A stretch of 12,825 bases of DNA, from NCBI GenBank assembly GCA_938029515.1, contig CALJAQ010000189.1:1-12825 (forward strand), written 5' to 3'. Under the pieces are notes generated by a model. The model saw nothing but the letters and a program-made list of their open reading frames with translations. It made no database searches and was not told the origin of the DNA. This document shows positions 6,889 to 12,044 of this stretch, one piece after another (the first letter of the stretch is position 1; each line of letters starts with the position of its first letter). This DNA comes from an uncultured Nitrososphaerales archaeon (GTDB lineage: Archaea; Thermoproteota; Nitrososphaeria; Nitrososphaerales; JAAOZN01). The translations under genes and the position numbers were made by a program.

Positions 6889-9112
6889 TCACTCCTTGTC
6901 GATGAACTCTTCTGCCCTAGGTGGCTCTTCAGGAAGCCCCTTCCTCTTTCTGATCTCTCTTATCACATTCATCATCAGCGAGCTAGGGACAGGAGACCAT
7001 GATTTGAAGTGTGTGTTCCAAAGCGCTTTTCCTGCTGTAGCACCACGCATAACTTCTGATAGGTCGAAGGTTTCTGATGTAGGCACCTCACCTTCTATTA
7101 TAGCCATCGTCTCCTTCTGGATGATGTTCAACGTCTTTCCACGCTTGGCGGATATAACTCCAGCAACAGAACCTATCATGTCAACAGGGCACTTCACCTC
7201 TATACCGAGCATAGGTTCAAGTAGAATAGGGTCGGCTGAGAGCAGAGCACCCAATATCGCTCTTCTCGTAGCAGGCATAAGCTGGGCGTAAGTTCTGTGC
7301 GCAGGGTCTTCGTGGGGAACAAAATGGTGGAGAATAACCTTCACACCCCTAGTGTATTCGTGAGCTAAAGCTCCTGTCATCATCACGTCAACAAACCCTG
7401 CTCTAATAGAGTCGAGTGACTCCTGAAGGAACTGCACACCCTTTGTCAAGTCGAGTAGTAGATTACCTCTTTCATCTACTGCAACTACGCTTCTAGCTTC
7501 TTCAGCATCCCAACCGAGCTCTCTAAGTATCTTGGCGATCTCCTTCCTATCCAGGTTCTCGTTTATTCGCCCGGTTCTTATGAGGTTGATCTCCTCTTCT
7601 GTAAGGGGGGCTACTTTGATGTAGATCTTGTTATGCTTATTAGGAGACTTCGCCATAACAGGCCCGGCTGAACTCCGTATGGTTTCTCTGTAGTTGATTA
7701 GCGGTTTTGATGTTATGATCTCTAACCCCTGCTGCTGAATGAGTGTTGTAGCTATTTCTAGGTGTAACACACCCATGCCAGACATAAGCATCTCACCTGT
7801 CTCTTCATTGATCTTGACTACGAGGTTTGGGTCTTCTATGCTTAGTCTACGTAGTGCATCCACGAGCTTGGGCAAATCTCTTGGAAGCTTCGGCTCGACG
7901 GCCACAGTGACTACAGGCTCAGACACATATTTTATCGATTCAAACGGGACGAGGTCCTTTACCGAGGATAAAGTTTCGCCAGCTCTGGCGTGTTCAAGCC
8001 CAAGTAGCGCTGGTATGTTACCTGCAGCAAGTTCGCCTATTATCTCCCTATACGGCCCCATGAACATGTTGACCGACTGGACCCTCTCTTCTCGTTTAGA
8101 GCCTATAAGATACACCTTATCTCCGTCTCTAACGGTGCCTGAGAAGAGCCTACCTGTAGCGACCACCCCAGCCTGAGGATCTACTACAACATTTGTAACC
8201 ATCATAACTATAGGCCCCTTTTCATCACAGCTCAAAAGCGCTCTACCAACATCTGAATCTAAATCACCTTTCCAAATTCTTGGGATACGGTATCTTTGGG
8301 CAACGTCTGGCGGTGGGTGGTGCTTGATCACCATAGTCAAGATCGCTTCGTGTAAGGGGAAGTTTTGGGCGAGCTCTGAAGCTGAGCCTTTAGTGTATGC
8401 GTCATACACATCGCTGAACCTTATTCCCTTCTTCTGCGCGATCTCTAGGTTAAACCCCCATCTGTCCTTGGCTGAGCCGAAGGCTACGCTGTTATCCTGT
8501 ATACTGACCTTCCACTTTTCTCTGTATTCTGGTTCAGCGTAGATGGATATAAGGTGGTTGAAGTCGTTCACTATACCGGCAAGCCACTGCTGCATCCGCT
8601 CCGGTGTAAGCCTAAGCTCCTTTACCAGCCGATCTATCTTATTTATGTAGAGTACTGGTCTAACCCTCTCCTCAAGGGCTTGACGGGTTACCGTCTCCGT
8701 CTGGGTCATAACACCTTCGACAGCATCTGTTACGACTACAGCACCATCAATAGCCCTAAGGCTCCTTGTAACCCTACCGGTAAAGTCTATGTGCCCTGGT
8801 GTGTCGATCATATTCAAAACGTAGGGTGTGTTGTTATATTCATAATAGAGTGTAACGTTAGCCGCTTTGATGGTCATCTGCCTCTGCTGCTCAAGATCCA
8901 TGTAGTCCAAGGCCAAAGCTTGCCCTGCTACAGATGGGCTTAGTAGCCCGCAGGCAGCAAGTAGGCTATCGCTCATCGTAGTTTTACCGTGATCTACGTG
9001 GGCAATGACACCAAAATTATTCGGGCCAGTCCTATGTGGACTAGGCCTTTCGAATCTGGTTCTTATTGCCTATGATCTTCATGATCTCAGCTGTAGTCTT
9101 ATACTTCGGCAT
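6889..9112 (-). CDS. fusA: Translation elongation factor 2 (EF-2), interrupted by one intron
   Basis: GTPase that drives ribosomal translocation. The gene is read as join(6889..9017, 9049..9112) on the minus strand: 2193 nt, 730 residues, normal for archaeal EF-2. Exon 1 starts ATG 9112 (MPKYKTTAEIMKIIGNK, the family N-terminus) and ends within codon 22. After splicing the chain continues IRNFGVIAHVDHGKTT, giving the P-loop at 27-35; DTPGH is at 93-97 and NKID at 147-150. Without splicing, exon 1 stops at a TAG after 23 codons. The frame from ATG 8976 (695 residues) lacks the P-loop, so it is not the true product. The diphthamide loop reads HEDPAHRTYAQ: the target His (residue 595) is kept, but the usual Gly-Pro/Gly-Gly after His-Arg is Thr-Tyr. 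AAGGGAAGG precedes the ATG. Confidence 0.93.
9018..9048 (-). other. 31-nt BHB (archaeal) intron in the EF-2 gene
   Basis: Read on the minus strand. Outer exon helix ACCAGA/TTTGGT (one G-U); central 4-bp helix TTCG/CGAA; 5' bulge AAA (9050-9048); inner intron helix GGCC-(T)-AGTCC with GGACT-GGCC and loop ACATA; 3' bulge TAAT (9019-9016). Cutting after the second base of each bulge, the rule for the archaeal splicing endonuclease, removes exactly 9048..9018. It joins CGAA to ATTTTGG, giving in-frame Arg-Asn-Phe-Gly. The 3' bulge is 4 nt instead of 3, a relaxed BHB. Confidence 0.85.
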
Positions 9113-9805: not shown

Positions 9806-9824
9806 GAATTATACTCAAGTTGTG

Positions 9825-9832
9825 GCATAAAT
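9825..9832 (-). promoter_or_regulatory. Possible TATA box of the hexulose-phosphate isomerase gene
   Basis: On the minus strand GATTTATG is centred about 24 bp upstream of the TTG start, consistent with a leaderless transcript. A poor TATA consensus, so tentative. Confidence 0.35.
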
Positions 9833-9919
9833 CACAGGCTAAAAAAGTTTTCTAAACAGTGCTTTGTTGCAAAATTGATCCCTATCTCTGGTCGTAGTAG
9901 GTTGGGTTTAGGCTGCTCT

Positions 9920-10081
9920 CTATGCTGTTAGGGTGTTGTAGGTTAGGCGTCTGACCTTTATCTCTTGTATGATCTAGATGGGGTCTATCACTCTTATGAA
10001 CTCTCATAGGGTTCTCTTCATAGTTGGGTTGCTTGTTTCAGCCATCCATCTGAATCCATAGCCTACGCTGTCCTTCCAAGC
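9920..10081 (-). pseudogene. Transposase C-terminal remnant (IS5/DDE-like)
   Basis: On the minus strand one frame reads GYGFRWMAETSNPTMKRTL, then a stop, then EFIRVIDPI, a stop, and IIQEIKVRRLTYNTL before a final TAG. RWMAE...KRT..EF is the C-terminal end of IS5-like DDE transposases, with the Glu of MAE a candidate third catalytic acid. Two internal in-frame stops and loss of everything upstream of 10081 make it a dead fragment. It abuts a second, oppositely oriented transposase remnant. No terminal inverted repeats or target duplications could be recognised. The family call rests on motif memory. Confidence 0.55.
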
Positions 10082-10394
10082 CTACGACTCAAGAGAAAAC
10101 CTCAGATTACTAGCTGAGAGAGGCGTAGATCCTATAATAAAGGTGAGAAAGAACTCCTCAACAAAAGCCAAGGACTGCATGCCTAGAAAACTTACACCAA
10201 TAGAGCAGCTCAAAGACCCAGATCGATGGAAGAAGAAGCACGGCTATAGGCTCAAATAGGCAGCTGAATCAGCCACCTCACCATCCAAAAGAACCTTCAG
10301 AGAATACACCTTCACTCATCAAATGGTGAAACATTTCAACGAAACCATCTTCAAAGCATCAATCCGCAACATCTACATAAGAATGAACCCGTAA
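10062..10394 (+). pseudogene. Transposase remnant (IS5/DDE-like), C-terminal half
   Basis: One plus frame reads AYDSRENLRLLAERGVDPII, then a Lys/Arg-rich stretch, KHGYRLK, a TAG stop at 10257-10259, AAESATSPSKRTFREY and finally NIYIRMNP before TAA at 10392-10394. YDSRENL..L...G is the block around the second catalytic Asp and AESA..KRTFREY the block around the Glu of IS5-like DDE transposases. The N-terminal half is absent, and an in-frame TAG (10059-10061) lies just upstream. Related to, but not identical with, the remnant on the opposite strand next to it, so these are two different insertions or diverged copies. Confidence 0.6.
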
Positions 10395-10434
10395 AGAAAG
10401 CAGCTCACAAAAAAAGCTTACAGACCACACAGAC

Positions 10435-10656
10435 CTAGTTATTCAACACATTACCCAGAAAACTATGTATATAAGATGCGAGTAAATTAGGTTTGAGGGT
10501 GAGCAGTTGATTCAGATCGTATTCGGTGAAAACGTAGAAACGGCTCAAGGACTCAGCGTAAACTTCAACGGTCGAGTAGCTAGTAGTCTTATGCTTCAAA
10601 TACCTAAGCACGTTACCCATGCTCTGAAAAACCGCTTCATCACCCTCGATCTTCAA
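10435..10656 (-). pseudogene. Truncated tyrosine recombinase, N-terminal SAM-like domain
   Basis: A 73-residue frame from TTG 10656 reads VLRYLKHKTTSYSTVEVYAE, then SLSRFYVF and LNQLLTLKPNLLASYI. The repeated-helix pattern with Thr-x-x-x-Y-x-x-x-L-x-x-F is the N-terminal DNA-binding (SAM-like) domain of phage/Xer-type tyrosine recombinases. The catalytic Arg-His-Arg-Tyr domain that should follow is missing: downstream lies the transposase remnant. It sits 55 bp upstream of the tRNA-Trp gene in opposite orientation, and tRNA genes are favoured integration sites. This suggests a lost integrative element. The family assignment is moderate because only one short domain remains. Confidence 0.45.
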
Positions 10657-10728
10657 CTATATCAAAGCCTGCATGCCGTACTACCTATCCTTACCGAGTT
10701 TCCACATATGTGGGGACGTAGTCTAGCA

Positions 10729-10750
10729 AGGTTCCTGTCGAACCCTGGAG
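10729..10750 (+). other. 22-nt BHB intron in the D-loop of tRNA-Trp
   Basis: Noncanonical position, between D-loop bases 17 and 18. Central helix CTAG (10723-10726) with CTGG (10745-10748), 5' bulge CAA, inner helix GGTTC/GAACC with loop CTGTC, 3' bulge AGA (10749-10751). Cutting after the second base of each 3-nt bulge leaves the normal loop AGCAAGGTA. The outer helix is weak. Confidence 0.8.
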
Positions 10751-10771
10751 AGGTAGGACGACAGGCTCCAG

Positions 10772-10838
10772 AGGTTTGGAAAACTATAGGTTCGCTGACA
10801 AGCTGGATGATGCGCCTTCGGAGCTAGGGTGAGGGGGA
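10772..10838 (+). other. 67-nt canonical 37/38 intron of tRNA-Trp
   Basis: Inserted after G37. BHB core: anticodon stem ACAGG/CCTGT as outer helix, loop bases CTCC (10766-10769) with GGGG (10833-10836) as 4-bp central helix, 5' bulge AGA (10770-10772), 3' bulge GAA (10837-10839). Both cuts after the second bulge base. An inner intron helix next to the core is not evident. CTGA (10795) and ATGATG (10807) inside recall box D'/C' but do not form a full guide RNA. Confidence 0.85.
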
Positions 10839-10968
10839 ACCTGTAGGCCGTGGGTTCAAATCCCACCGTCCCCACCAGCCTTATACCCCGCTACTTGTAG
10901 TTAGTATCTCTCATCTGCTAGCATTGAGATGCAGAATAGGCTACTGGCTGCTTTAAATGTTGTGAGGT

Positions 10969-11109
10969 TTACACGGCAGAACTTATTATTGGAGCGTATT
11001 TCTCGAGTAGTTGAGACATGGTAGCTGTGGATCCGTAGTGACGTAGTCTAAAAAGTTTGGGACATCCACAAGAATGTTTAAACTCCTACCCTTTAATCTC
11101 CTTACAATC
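10969..11109 (-). pseudogene. Decayed reading frame of unknown origin
   Basis: On the minus strand a frame after TAA 11110-11112 reads DCKEIKG, a TAG (11086-11088), then EFKHSCGCPKLFRLRHYGST, MSQLLEKYAP and a final TAA at 10969-10971. The composition looks protein-like (Cys-Gly-Cys knuckle, amphipathic end), unlike the antisense frames. No family recognised; it may be another mobile-element fragment. The stop and missing start argue it is dead. Confidence 0.3.
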
Positions 11110-11140
11110 TTATGGACAGTTGCTTGTCTCTGAACTCTCT

Positions 11141-11248
11141 TTAAAATTCATCTGCCTTTCTGTGGGGGAGGATTCTAATCTTCATCGAGGGATTTTTAAC
11201 TGTCAAAACGCTTTTCTTAATAATTTCGTCGGTTGCTTTCAGCAACAC
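11141..11248 (-). pseudogene. Short protein-like remnant of unknown origin
   Basis: From GTG 11248 the minus frame gives 35 residues (LLKATDEIIKKSVLTVKNPS and a basic end). The same frame upstream of a TAG (11258-11260) continues protein-like (FVKQFWRRLMK). It is probably the tail of a decayed gene and could be part of the same lost gene as the neighbouring remnant at lower coordinates. No family recognised. Confidence 0.25.
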
Positions 11249-11447
11249 GTGCTCTACCTATTTCATCAACCTTCTCCAGAACTGTTTCACAAAACCAAAC
11301 AAAATGAATACAGACGCACCCTAATAACAACTACTCTCCGAACTTATTGCACTACTATTTGTGCTGCAAGCAACTTTTGCTTTTTGATTGCGAAGCTTGT
11401 TGAGGTCATCCTTTTGGTGTTTAAGGGAGCAGCGGAGGTGGGAAGAG

Positions 11448-11540
11448 ATGCAGCTAATCAAAGCAGATTGGATAAGGGAGGCCACAGCTTATAAACGGGG
11501 CAAGAAACCTTACGTCTATGCTGTTTTCAAATACGGCTGA
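11448..11540 (+). pseudogene. 30-codon ORF or gene fragment
   Basis: ATG 11448 with GGAGG/GGGAAGAG upstream opens MQLIKADWIREATAYKRGKK, followed by PYVYAVFKYG and TGA. The start context and amphipathic composition look like the beginning of a real protein cut short. No family recognised. It could be a small gene, but the surroundings favour a fragment. Confidence 0.25.
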
Positions 11541-11759
11541 GGGTGTGTGAAGACGCTCTTGAGAAACCACGCGGCTGAGGCGTGAACATCGCTCCCAGTT
11601 TCCCGTTGAGAAAGCTGAGACCAAGCTTGACCTCTAGATGCAAGGAGCCTCTAAAGTGCAACAGGTATTAGACATAGGTTAAAATGAAGGCAATTTTCGG
11701 AACTATCTTTGCTGCCCAGATTGACAAATTAATTCTCAAGAAGCCTCTCCTCCTATAGG
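11541..11759. other. Non-coding or decayed stretch
   Basis: No RNA gene, terminator or repeat recognised. One plus frame (11573 onward) gives a short protein-like string (GVNIAPSFPLRKL) and ATG 11684 opens a 24-codon frame (MKAIFGTIFAAQIDKLILKK); both end quickly. Most likely continuing decay of mobile or foreign DNA. Confidence 0.3.
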
Positions 11760-12037
11760 TGCGATCTCAAACTTTCATTCCTTCTCGAGTACCGCGTCTA
11801 CGGTATCATAGAGTCAACACGTAAAGTGGGATAATATCGTCAACATCAGACACTCTTATTTATCAGGTGAAAGGCCGAACAGATGAGATTCGGACGAAGA
11901 TTCAGAAGGCGAAACCTTCGAGTCTTCCTGTCAACGTTCATATCGCAGACAGGTTCTTCGCAAGCCTCCCTGACATATAGTTCGGTTGTGTGGTAATGTG
12001 TCTTGAAGTGAATGAAACCTTCGTCTTGGCAGACTAA
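11760..12037 (+). pseudogene. Frameshifted remnant of one decayed gene, family unknown
   Basis: Protein-like text moves through all three plus frames in order: LKLSFLLEYRVYGIIESTRK (11766 onward, stop 11832-11834), then KWDNIVNIRHSYLSGERPN (from 11824, stop 11884-11886), then TDEIRTKIQKAKPSSLPVNV, HIADRFFASLPDI (stop 11978-11980) and FGCVVMCLEVNETFVLAD (stop 12035-12037). Consecutive pieces overlap where the frame changes, as expected of one gene damaged by at least two indels and two stops. The family is not recognised. It ends 7 nt before the convergent P-type ATPase stop. Confidence 0.4.
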
Positions 12038-12044
12038 GTTGTTG

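Follow-up and report, generated by a model that had tools for sequence, protein, structure and literature searches.

The stretch of DNA analysed here (the window; 12,825 nt, contig CALJAQ010000189.1 of assembly GCA_938029515.1, from an uncultured Nitrososphaerales archaeon) carries an EF-2 gene on the minus strand, with its ATG at 9112 and its stop codon ending at 6889. Read without splicing, the EF-2 N terminus lies in a different frame from the remainder of the protein, and the exon-1 frame runs into a TAG at 9043–9041. The elements of the locus, all on the minus strand, are as follows.

9049..9112, minus: EF-2 exon 1, 64 nt, 21 codons from the ATG on, then the first base of Asn22
9018..9048, minus: predicted bulge–helix–bulge (BHB) intron at position A, 31 nt, removal predicted
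9041..9043, minus: in-frame TAG within the putative intron, in the exon-1 frame, two codons past the Arg codon
6889..9017, minus: EF-2 exon 2, 2129 nt, uninterrupted, encoding the P-loop AHVDHGKT and every domain that follows
9055..9060, minus: outer helix, exon 1 strand ACCAGA
9010..9015, minus: outer helix, exon 2 strand UUUGGU
9051..9054, minus: central helix, exon strand UUCG, overlapping the Ile-Arg codons
9020..9023, minus: central helix, intron strand CGAA
9048..9050, minus: 5′ bulge AAA (3 nt), predicted cut after the second base, between 9049 and 9048
9016..9019, minus: 3′ bulge UAAU (4 nt), predicted cut after the second base, between 9018 and 9017

Exon 1 (9112–9049) translates as MPKYKTTAEIMKIIGNKNQIR, followed by the first base of Asn22. 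Excision of 9048–9018 joins 64 nt to 2129 nt in a 2193-nt ORF of 730 aa plus stop, in which the Asn22 codon spans the predicted junction and the protein reads QIRNFGVIAHVDHGKTT. The two frames, the 31-nt insert, the TAG in the exon-1 frame and the 730-codon product had all been described in an earlier note on this DNA, and each was recovered on the minus strand. Elsewhere in the window, ∼2.2 kb (9806–12044) lack a convincing gene and are flanked by a sugar-isomerase-like ORF and a P-type ATPase fragment, both named by eye; short ORFs in this region, such as 10435–10656 on the minus strand, may be the remains of a recombinase gene, again judged by eye, and the region has no Rfam or tRNA match.

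The insert and its flanks are predicted to form the structure that archaeal splicing endonucleases recognize. For the RNA from 9075 to 8995, both the minimum free energy (MFE) and the centroid structures are a BHB, with a 6-bp outer helix, a 4-bp central helix, both bulges, and an inner helix composed of GGCC and AGUCC with one U bulged, just as the earlier note had drawn it. The fold has an energy of −30.2 kcal/mol vs. a mean of −14.9 in 200 shuffles, none of which equals it (z −5.49). The bulges, of 3 and 4 nt, lie on opposite strands with the 4-bp helix between them, in line with the ∼3-nt bulges of the canonical motif, and cuts two bases into each bulge would leave a continuous, functional exon. 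Hence our favored reading, to which we give a probability of ∼95%, is that the 31 nt constitute a BHB pre-mRNA intron that would be cut out by the splicing endonuclease and its exons joined by RtcB, yielding a 730-aa EF-2. That a BHB pre-mRNA intron lies in EF-2 appears close to certain from the sequence comparisons below, and splicing of the EF-2 pre-mRNA is what we infer from it. Other identities were set aside: the window has no Rfam match at the gathering threshold and the insert is just 31 nt, which does not suit a group I or group II intron (the tRNA scan of the window was likewise empty); the frame change and the TAG inside the insert rule out an intein; and the known cbf5 pre-mRNA intron is not at issue, as the gene here is EF-2.

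Comparison with related genomes supports this reading. Of 61 genomes, 43, the window's own among them, have a match to a 163-base query from the insert region. The same-genus genomes G001 and G002 are interrupted at the window's position, by inserts of 31 and 30 nt with different inner sequences, and the inner pairing is kept, GGCC/GGCC in the window and GGCU/AGCC in both relatives. Alignment of EF-2 in relatives, proposed in the earlier note as a check, thus places the insert at the same position with exon–intron pairing maintained through sequence change. In addition, a degenerate pattern of the site matches 12 named genome contigs, 11 of them thaumarchaeal by name (Nitrososphaerota and subgroups) and one titled only Archaeon HR04; they include Nitrosocaldus sp. 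SKYG19, Nitrosothermus koennekii, UBA141, and DRTY6_bin.124, the last with a stretch identical to G001 over 144 bases. An assembly error or sequencing artefact could be suspected in a MAG as fragmented as this one (194 contigs, 72% complete). However, other genomes, including a single-contig genome of 1.58 Mb (G003), hold an insert at the same place that differs in sequence and retains the pairing, and so the window insert is not an assembly error, an explanation whose probability we consider negligible.

The inserts extend well beyond the genus. Three overlapping genome samples, each with the window's own genome in it, were searched for the EF-2 N terminus: 300 genomes from the order, 150 from the class, and 151 from the phylum. 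The DNA of most interrupted-looking EF-2 loci was examined together with unbroken ones. In the order sample, 273 of the 300 genomes have an EF-2 match, and among the matches listed each genome has one, save a single genome with two (G266). At least 56 genomes, drawn from order, class, and phylum, have an insert that was read near the EF-2 P-loop. Position A, the site found in the window (QIR^N, at codon Asn22 after Arg21), accounts for 35 of the 56, in two registers 1 nt apart; position B, in the P-loop Lys33 codon of DHGKTT, for 15, also in two registers; position C (AH^VDHG) for five; and a V^DHG site for one (G096). As they derive from the matches listed, with a few suspicious genomes left out, these counts are minimum numbers rather than frequencies; interrupted-looking or weakly matching genomes, such as G358, G367, G391, G402, and G430, stand outside them. 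At the level of individual loci, 173 were read as 48 unbroken, 79 interrupted (from which L081, containing Ns, was removed), and 46 neither. The 46 comprise, among others, 20 endonuclease loci, intein genes, pieces at contig ends or broken by Ns, L103, and EF-2 loci that look unbroken and fail the strict N-terminus motif (e.g., L016, L020, L040, L067, and L072). Six loci of the Nitrosocaldus group (family f2: L007, L009, L011, L012, L015, and L064) have putative introns of 37 to 63 nt with a common 10-bp inner stem, and the loops of L012 and L064 hold GTTA or TTAA repeats, suggestive of slippage in the loop.

The pairing rule of the BHB is followed by most of these inserts. A strict criterion, a perfect 4-bp central helix with at least three inner pairs at any of the cuts restoring the EF-2 motif, is satisfied by 47 of 54 distinct inserts, where 0.31 is expected from 1000 dinucleotide shuffles per insert. 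The seven others fall short by having two inner pairs only (L006 and L008), three of four central pairs (L073, L075, and L090), or two of four (L080 and L083), and at many of the inserts other than the window's the outer helices, counted without gaps, are short or absent. Across the 35 inserts at position A, standard pairs fill 276 of the 280 cells of the central and inner helices, while 1000 permutations average 196 with a best of 211, and sliding the partner strand by 1 to 3 bases leaves at most 154 cells paired. Specifically, the exon strands UUCG, UCCG, and CAGG, which encode Ile-Arg, face the intron strands CGAA, CGGA, and CCUG, with a G-U pair in two inserts. Seven of the eight pairs are changed on both sides, a less telling result than the cell count, given that permutations average 5.3 and some reach the maximum of 7. 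The sequences are related and the P values thus not independent, so the size of these effects carries more weight than the P values.

These patterns also bear on translational bypassing or frameshifting, by which ribosomes would hop over the hairpin with no RNA splicing. As short hairpins in which a stop comes soon after the gap begins, the EF-2 inserts resemble known bypass signals. Yet the window lacks matching take-off and landing codons, on which ground a bypass element was rejected: a bypass to Asn22 would require take-off from CGA and landing on AAU, and one to Phe23 would move from AAG to AAU and replace the conserved Asn by Lys. Moreover, bypassing does not predict two bulges 4 bp apart exactly at the cut sites, and the pairing between exon and intron is kept. 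We regard it as very improbable.

Every insert closes the exon-1 reading frame. A stop codon in that frame is present in 54 of 54 distinct inserts, vs. 26.8 of 54 expected from dinucleotide shuffles and 27.3 from a shuffle that holds the pairing and the last six bases. When the inserts are collapsed into 22 lineage groups, the stop is found in all of them (log10 P −6.9, with the highest expectation per group used). The stop lies two codons past the Arg codon in 26 of the 35 inserts at position A and further along in the other nine. Insert lengths are distributed over the three frames as 19, 19, and 16; with lengths spread so evenly, the constant feature is the stop, not the frame. Most simply, selection may have acted against translating an mRNA that still carries the intron, which would give an EF-2 whose G1 region is damaged.

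An interrupted gene may also be a pseudogene, or the functional EF-2 may begin downstream of the insert, at Met36, as databases annotate it: public predictions are 695-aa proteins beginning MSDSLL. A protein with that start has no P-loop, however, and the gene bears the marks of a coding sequence on both sides of the insert. Exon 1 keeps the EF-2 N terminus, with three synonymous and no nonsynonymous codon differences from G001 and three of each from G002, and exon 2 is open along its full length. The window's own MAG, at 72% completeness, has one EFG_IV match and no other EF-2 copy was found in it, which also speaks to the second intact gene that the earlier note had named as grounds for abandoning the intron. 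Both a pseudogene and a truncated start are accordingly very improbable in our estimation, about as much so as bypassing. Among public EF-2 proteins from genes of this kind, truncation at the N terminus is common. Of the best 120 database proteins, 82 have an early, complete P-loop by the filter applied and 38 do not; the 38 consist of 34 proteins of 695 aa starting MSDSLL or MSDNLL, three proteins with inteins, and the 675-aa entry of the window itself. Even some of the passing proteins are without the true N terminus, their starts lying at the P-loop or ahead of it (714-aa P0001, 719-aa P0118, and the 705-aa Nitrosocaldus nr protein P0115). Entries near the window's EF-2, including P0008, P0009, and P0115, are N-truncated, with starts that lie downstream of the P-loop, at it, or just upstream, and their names mention no intron.

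The inserts are scattered over the EF-2 tree. On a quick tree of EF-2 exon 2 with 112 rows (113 minus L090, which is too short), where the label “none” rests on full-length stop-free search matches or on locus reading and not in every case on base-by-base inspection, position A needs at least seven changes and all states together 24. A single clade for the 28 rows labelled A, with the other register kept apart, is rejected (AU p 4e-5). Two groups with support of 95 and 99, comprising 13 rows and 12 families, are entirely intronless. In one family (f11), related EF-2 genes are intronless or have inserts in three registers (B, B2, and V^D). Collectively, the tree changes, the rejected clade, and this family indicate that the introns repeatedly came, went, or moved between EF-2 genes; in this phylum the 5′ region of EF-2 seems to have gained, lost, or exchanged BHB introns several times.

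The same region receives protein-level elements. In the EF-2 of G007, the P-loop is broken after HGK by an in-frame insert that matches the Pfam families Intein_splicing and LAGLIDADG_3. Six genomes, G007 (L104) and G314, G325, G315, G318, and G302 (L167–L171), have an insert at HGK^TT that is several hundred residues long; Pfam confirmation is for G007, and the other five look alike. Such elements share the Lys-Thr target with the site-B introns and differ in being in-frame protein elements rather than acting at the RNA level. Wherever exon 1 of an intein-bearing EF-2 is readable (G007, G318, and database proteins P0042, P0059, and P0060), it is intronless. With inteins and putative site-B introns both falling in the Lys codon of the P-loop, the two element types may be drawn alike to this highly conserved stretch, or each may exclude the other. 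In the accessible portion of PMC6563490, EF-2 is also described as seemingly the commonest casposon integration target in thaumarchaea, so that, with casposons, inteins, and BHB introns, the gene draws at least three kinds of insertion in these organisms. A speculative and rather unlikely extension is that the first 35 codons of archaeal EF-2 form a landing zone, used repeatedly, in which BHB introns with their stops and LAGLIDADG inteins are competitors. The introns would then be kept for tying EF-2 synthesis to the tRNA-splicing machinery, for destroying the homing site of P-loop inteins, or for both.

The enzymes that such introns would call for are encoded in these genomes. Of 61 genomes, 59 have genes of the splicing-endonuclease family, usually two, which fits a two-subunit enzyme; the window's own MAG (72% complete) has one, and G001 and G002 have two each. 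RtcB was found in 21 of 21 genomes, the window's own included, and the host thus carries both the endonuclease and the ligase. In the mechanism we propose, RNA comprising exon 1, intron, and exon 2 would fold into the BHB, as the computed fold and the pairing kept in relatives suggest; the splicing endonuclease, probably in a two-subunit form, would cut each bulge behind its second base, and the exons would be ligated by RtcB, steps modelled on the gene families present and the known cbf5 case. The product would be an mRNA for the 730-aa EF-2, with the Asn22 codon formed across the junction. Before splicing, translation would halt at the in-frame stop observed in the intron and give a short peptide only, so that no EF-2 with a damaged G1/P-loop region would be made. 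A control point linking splicing to translation, as the earlier note suggested, would be a conjecture beyond this mechanism. The intron proposed in the earlier note therefore finds support in the same-place inserts of relatives, the protein-restoring cuts, the kept pairing, the endonuclease and RtcB genes, and a coding exon 1. The reach across the phylum, the several sites in one gene, and the stop in every insert go beyond what that note described.

Known BHB introns in archaeal mRNAs are few. According to the available text of PMC2738675, cbf5 of Crenarchaeota has a BHB intron in a protein-coding gene, and putative introns are predicted in further protein-coding genes; the excerpted text of PMC7714728 gives the cbf5 mRNA as the sole further archaeal BHB intron reported as of 2020 and adds BHB cleavage in the 5′ UTR of the Haloferax HVO_1309 mRNA. 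No EF-2 intron was found in the literature searched, which lay mainly outside subscription journals and in part comprised partial texts, in agreement with the earlier note's statement that it knew of no established EF-2 example. As far as the cbf5 intron is described in these texts, the EF-2 case resembles it in having a protein-coding host gene, a cut after the second bulge base, a junction within a codon near a key functional residue, a variable inner loop, lineage-specific gain and loss, and a tie to the heteromeric endonuclease. In contrast, the EF-2 inserts lie in another gene and other lineages, occupy several sites in one gene, and all carry a stop. TruB_N, the cbf5 domain, has matches in 18 of 21 genomes, all open frames with no stops, so that the known cbf5 intron is not evident in the relatives searched. 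With HVO_1309, as excerpted, the EF-2 case shares an mRNA as splicing-endonuclease substrate, the site there being in the 5′ UTR, whereas the EF-2 intron lies within coding sequence. The BHB introns of archaeal pre-tRNAs and rRNAs obey the same fold rule and presumably use the same endonuclease and ligase, but the EF-2 substrate is the mRNA of an essential translation factor, and the exon side of the helix has to encode Ile-Arg or the P-loop as well as pair.

EF-2 is a common phylogenetic marker, and many public EF-2 sequences of these groups are without their N terminus. Furthermore, judging from the genomes compared here, the translocation GTPase in many members of one phylum appears to require RNA splicing, and the origin, movement, and persistence of archaeal mRNA introns become directly testable, in lineages that include Nitrosocaldus.
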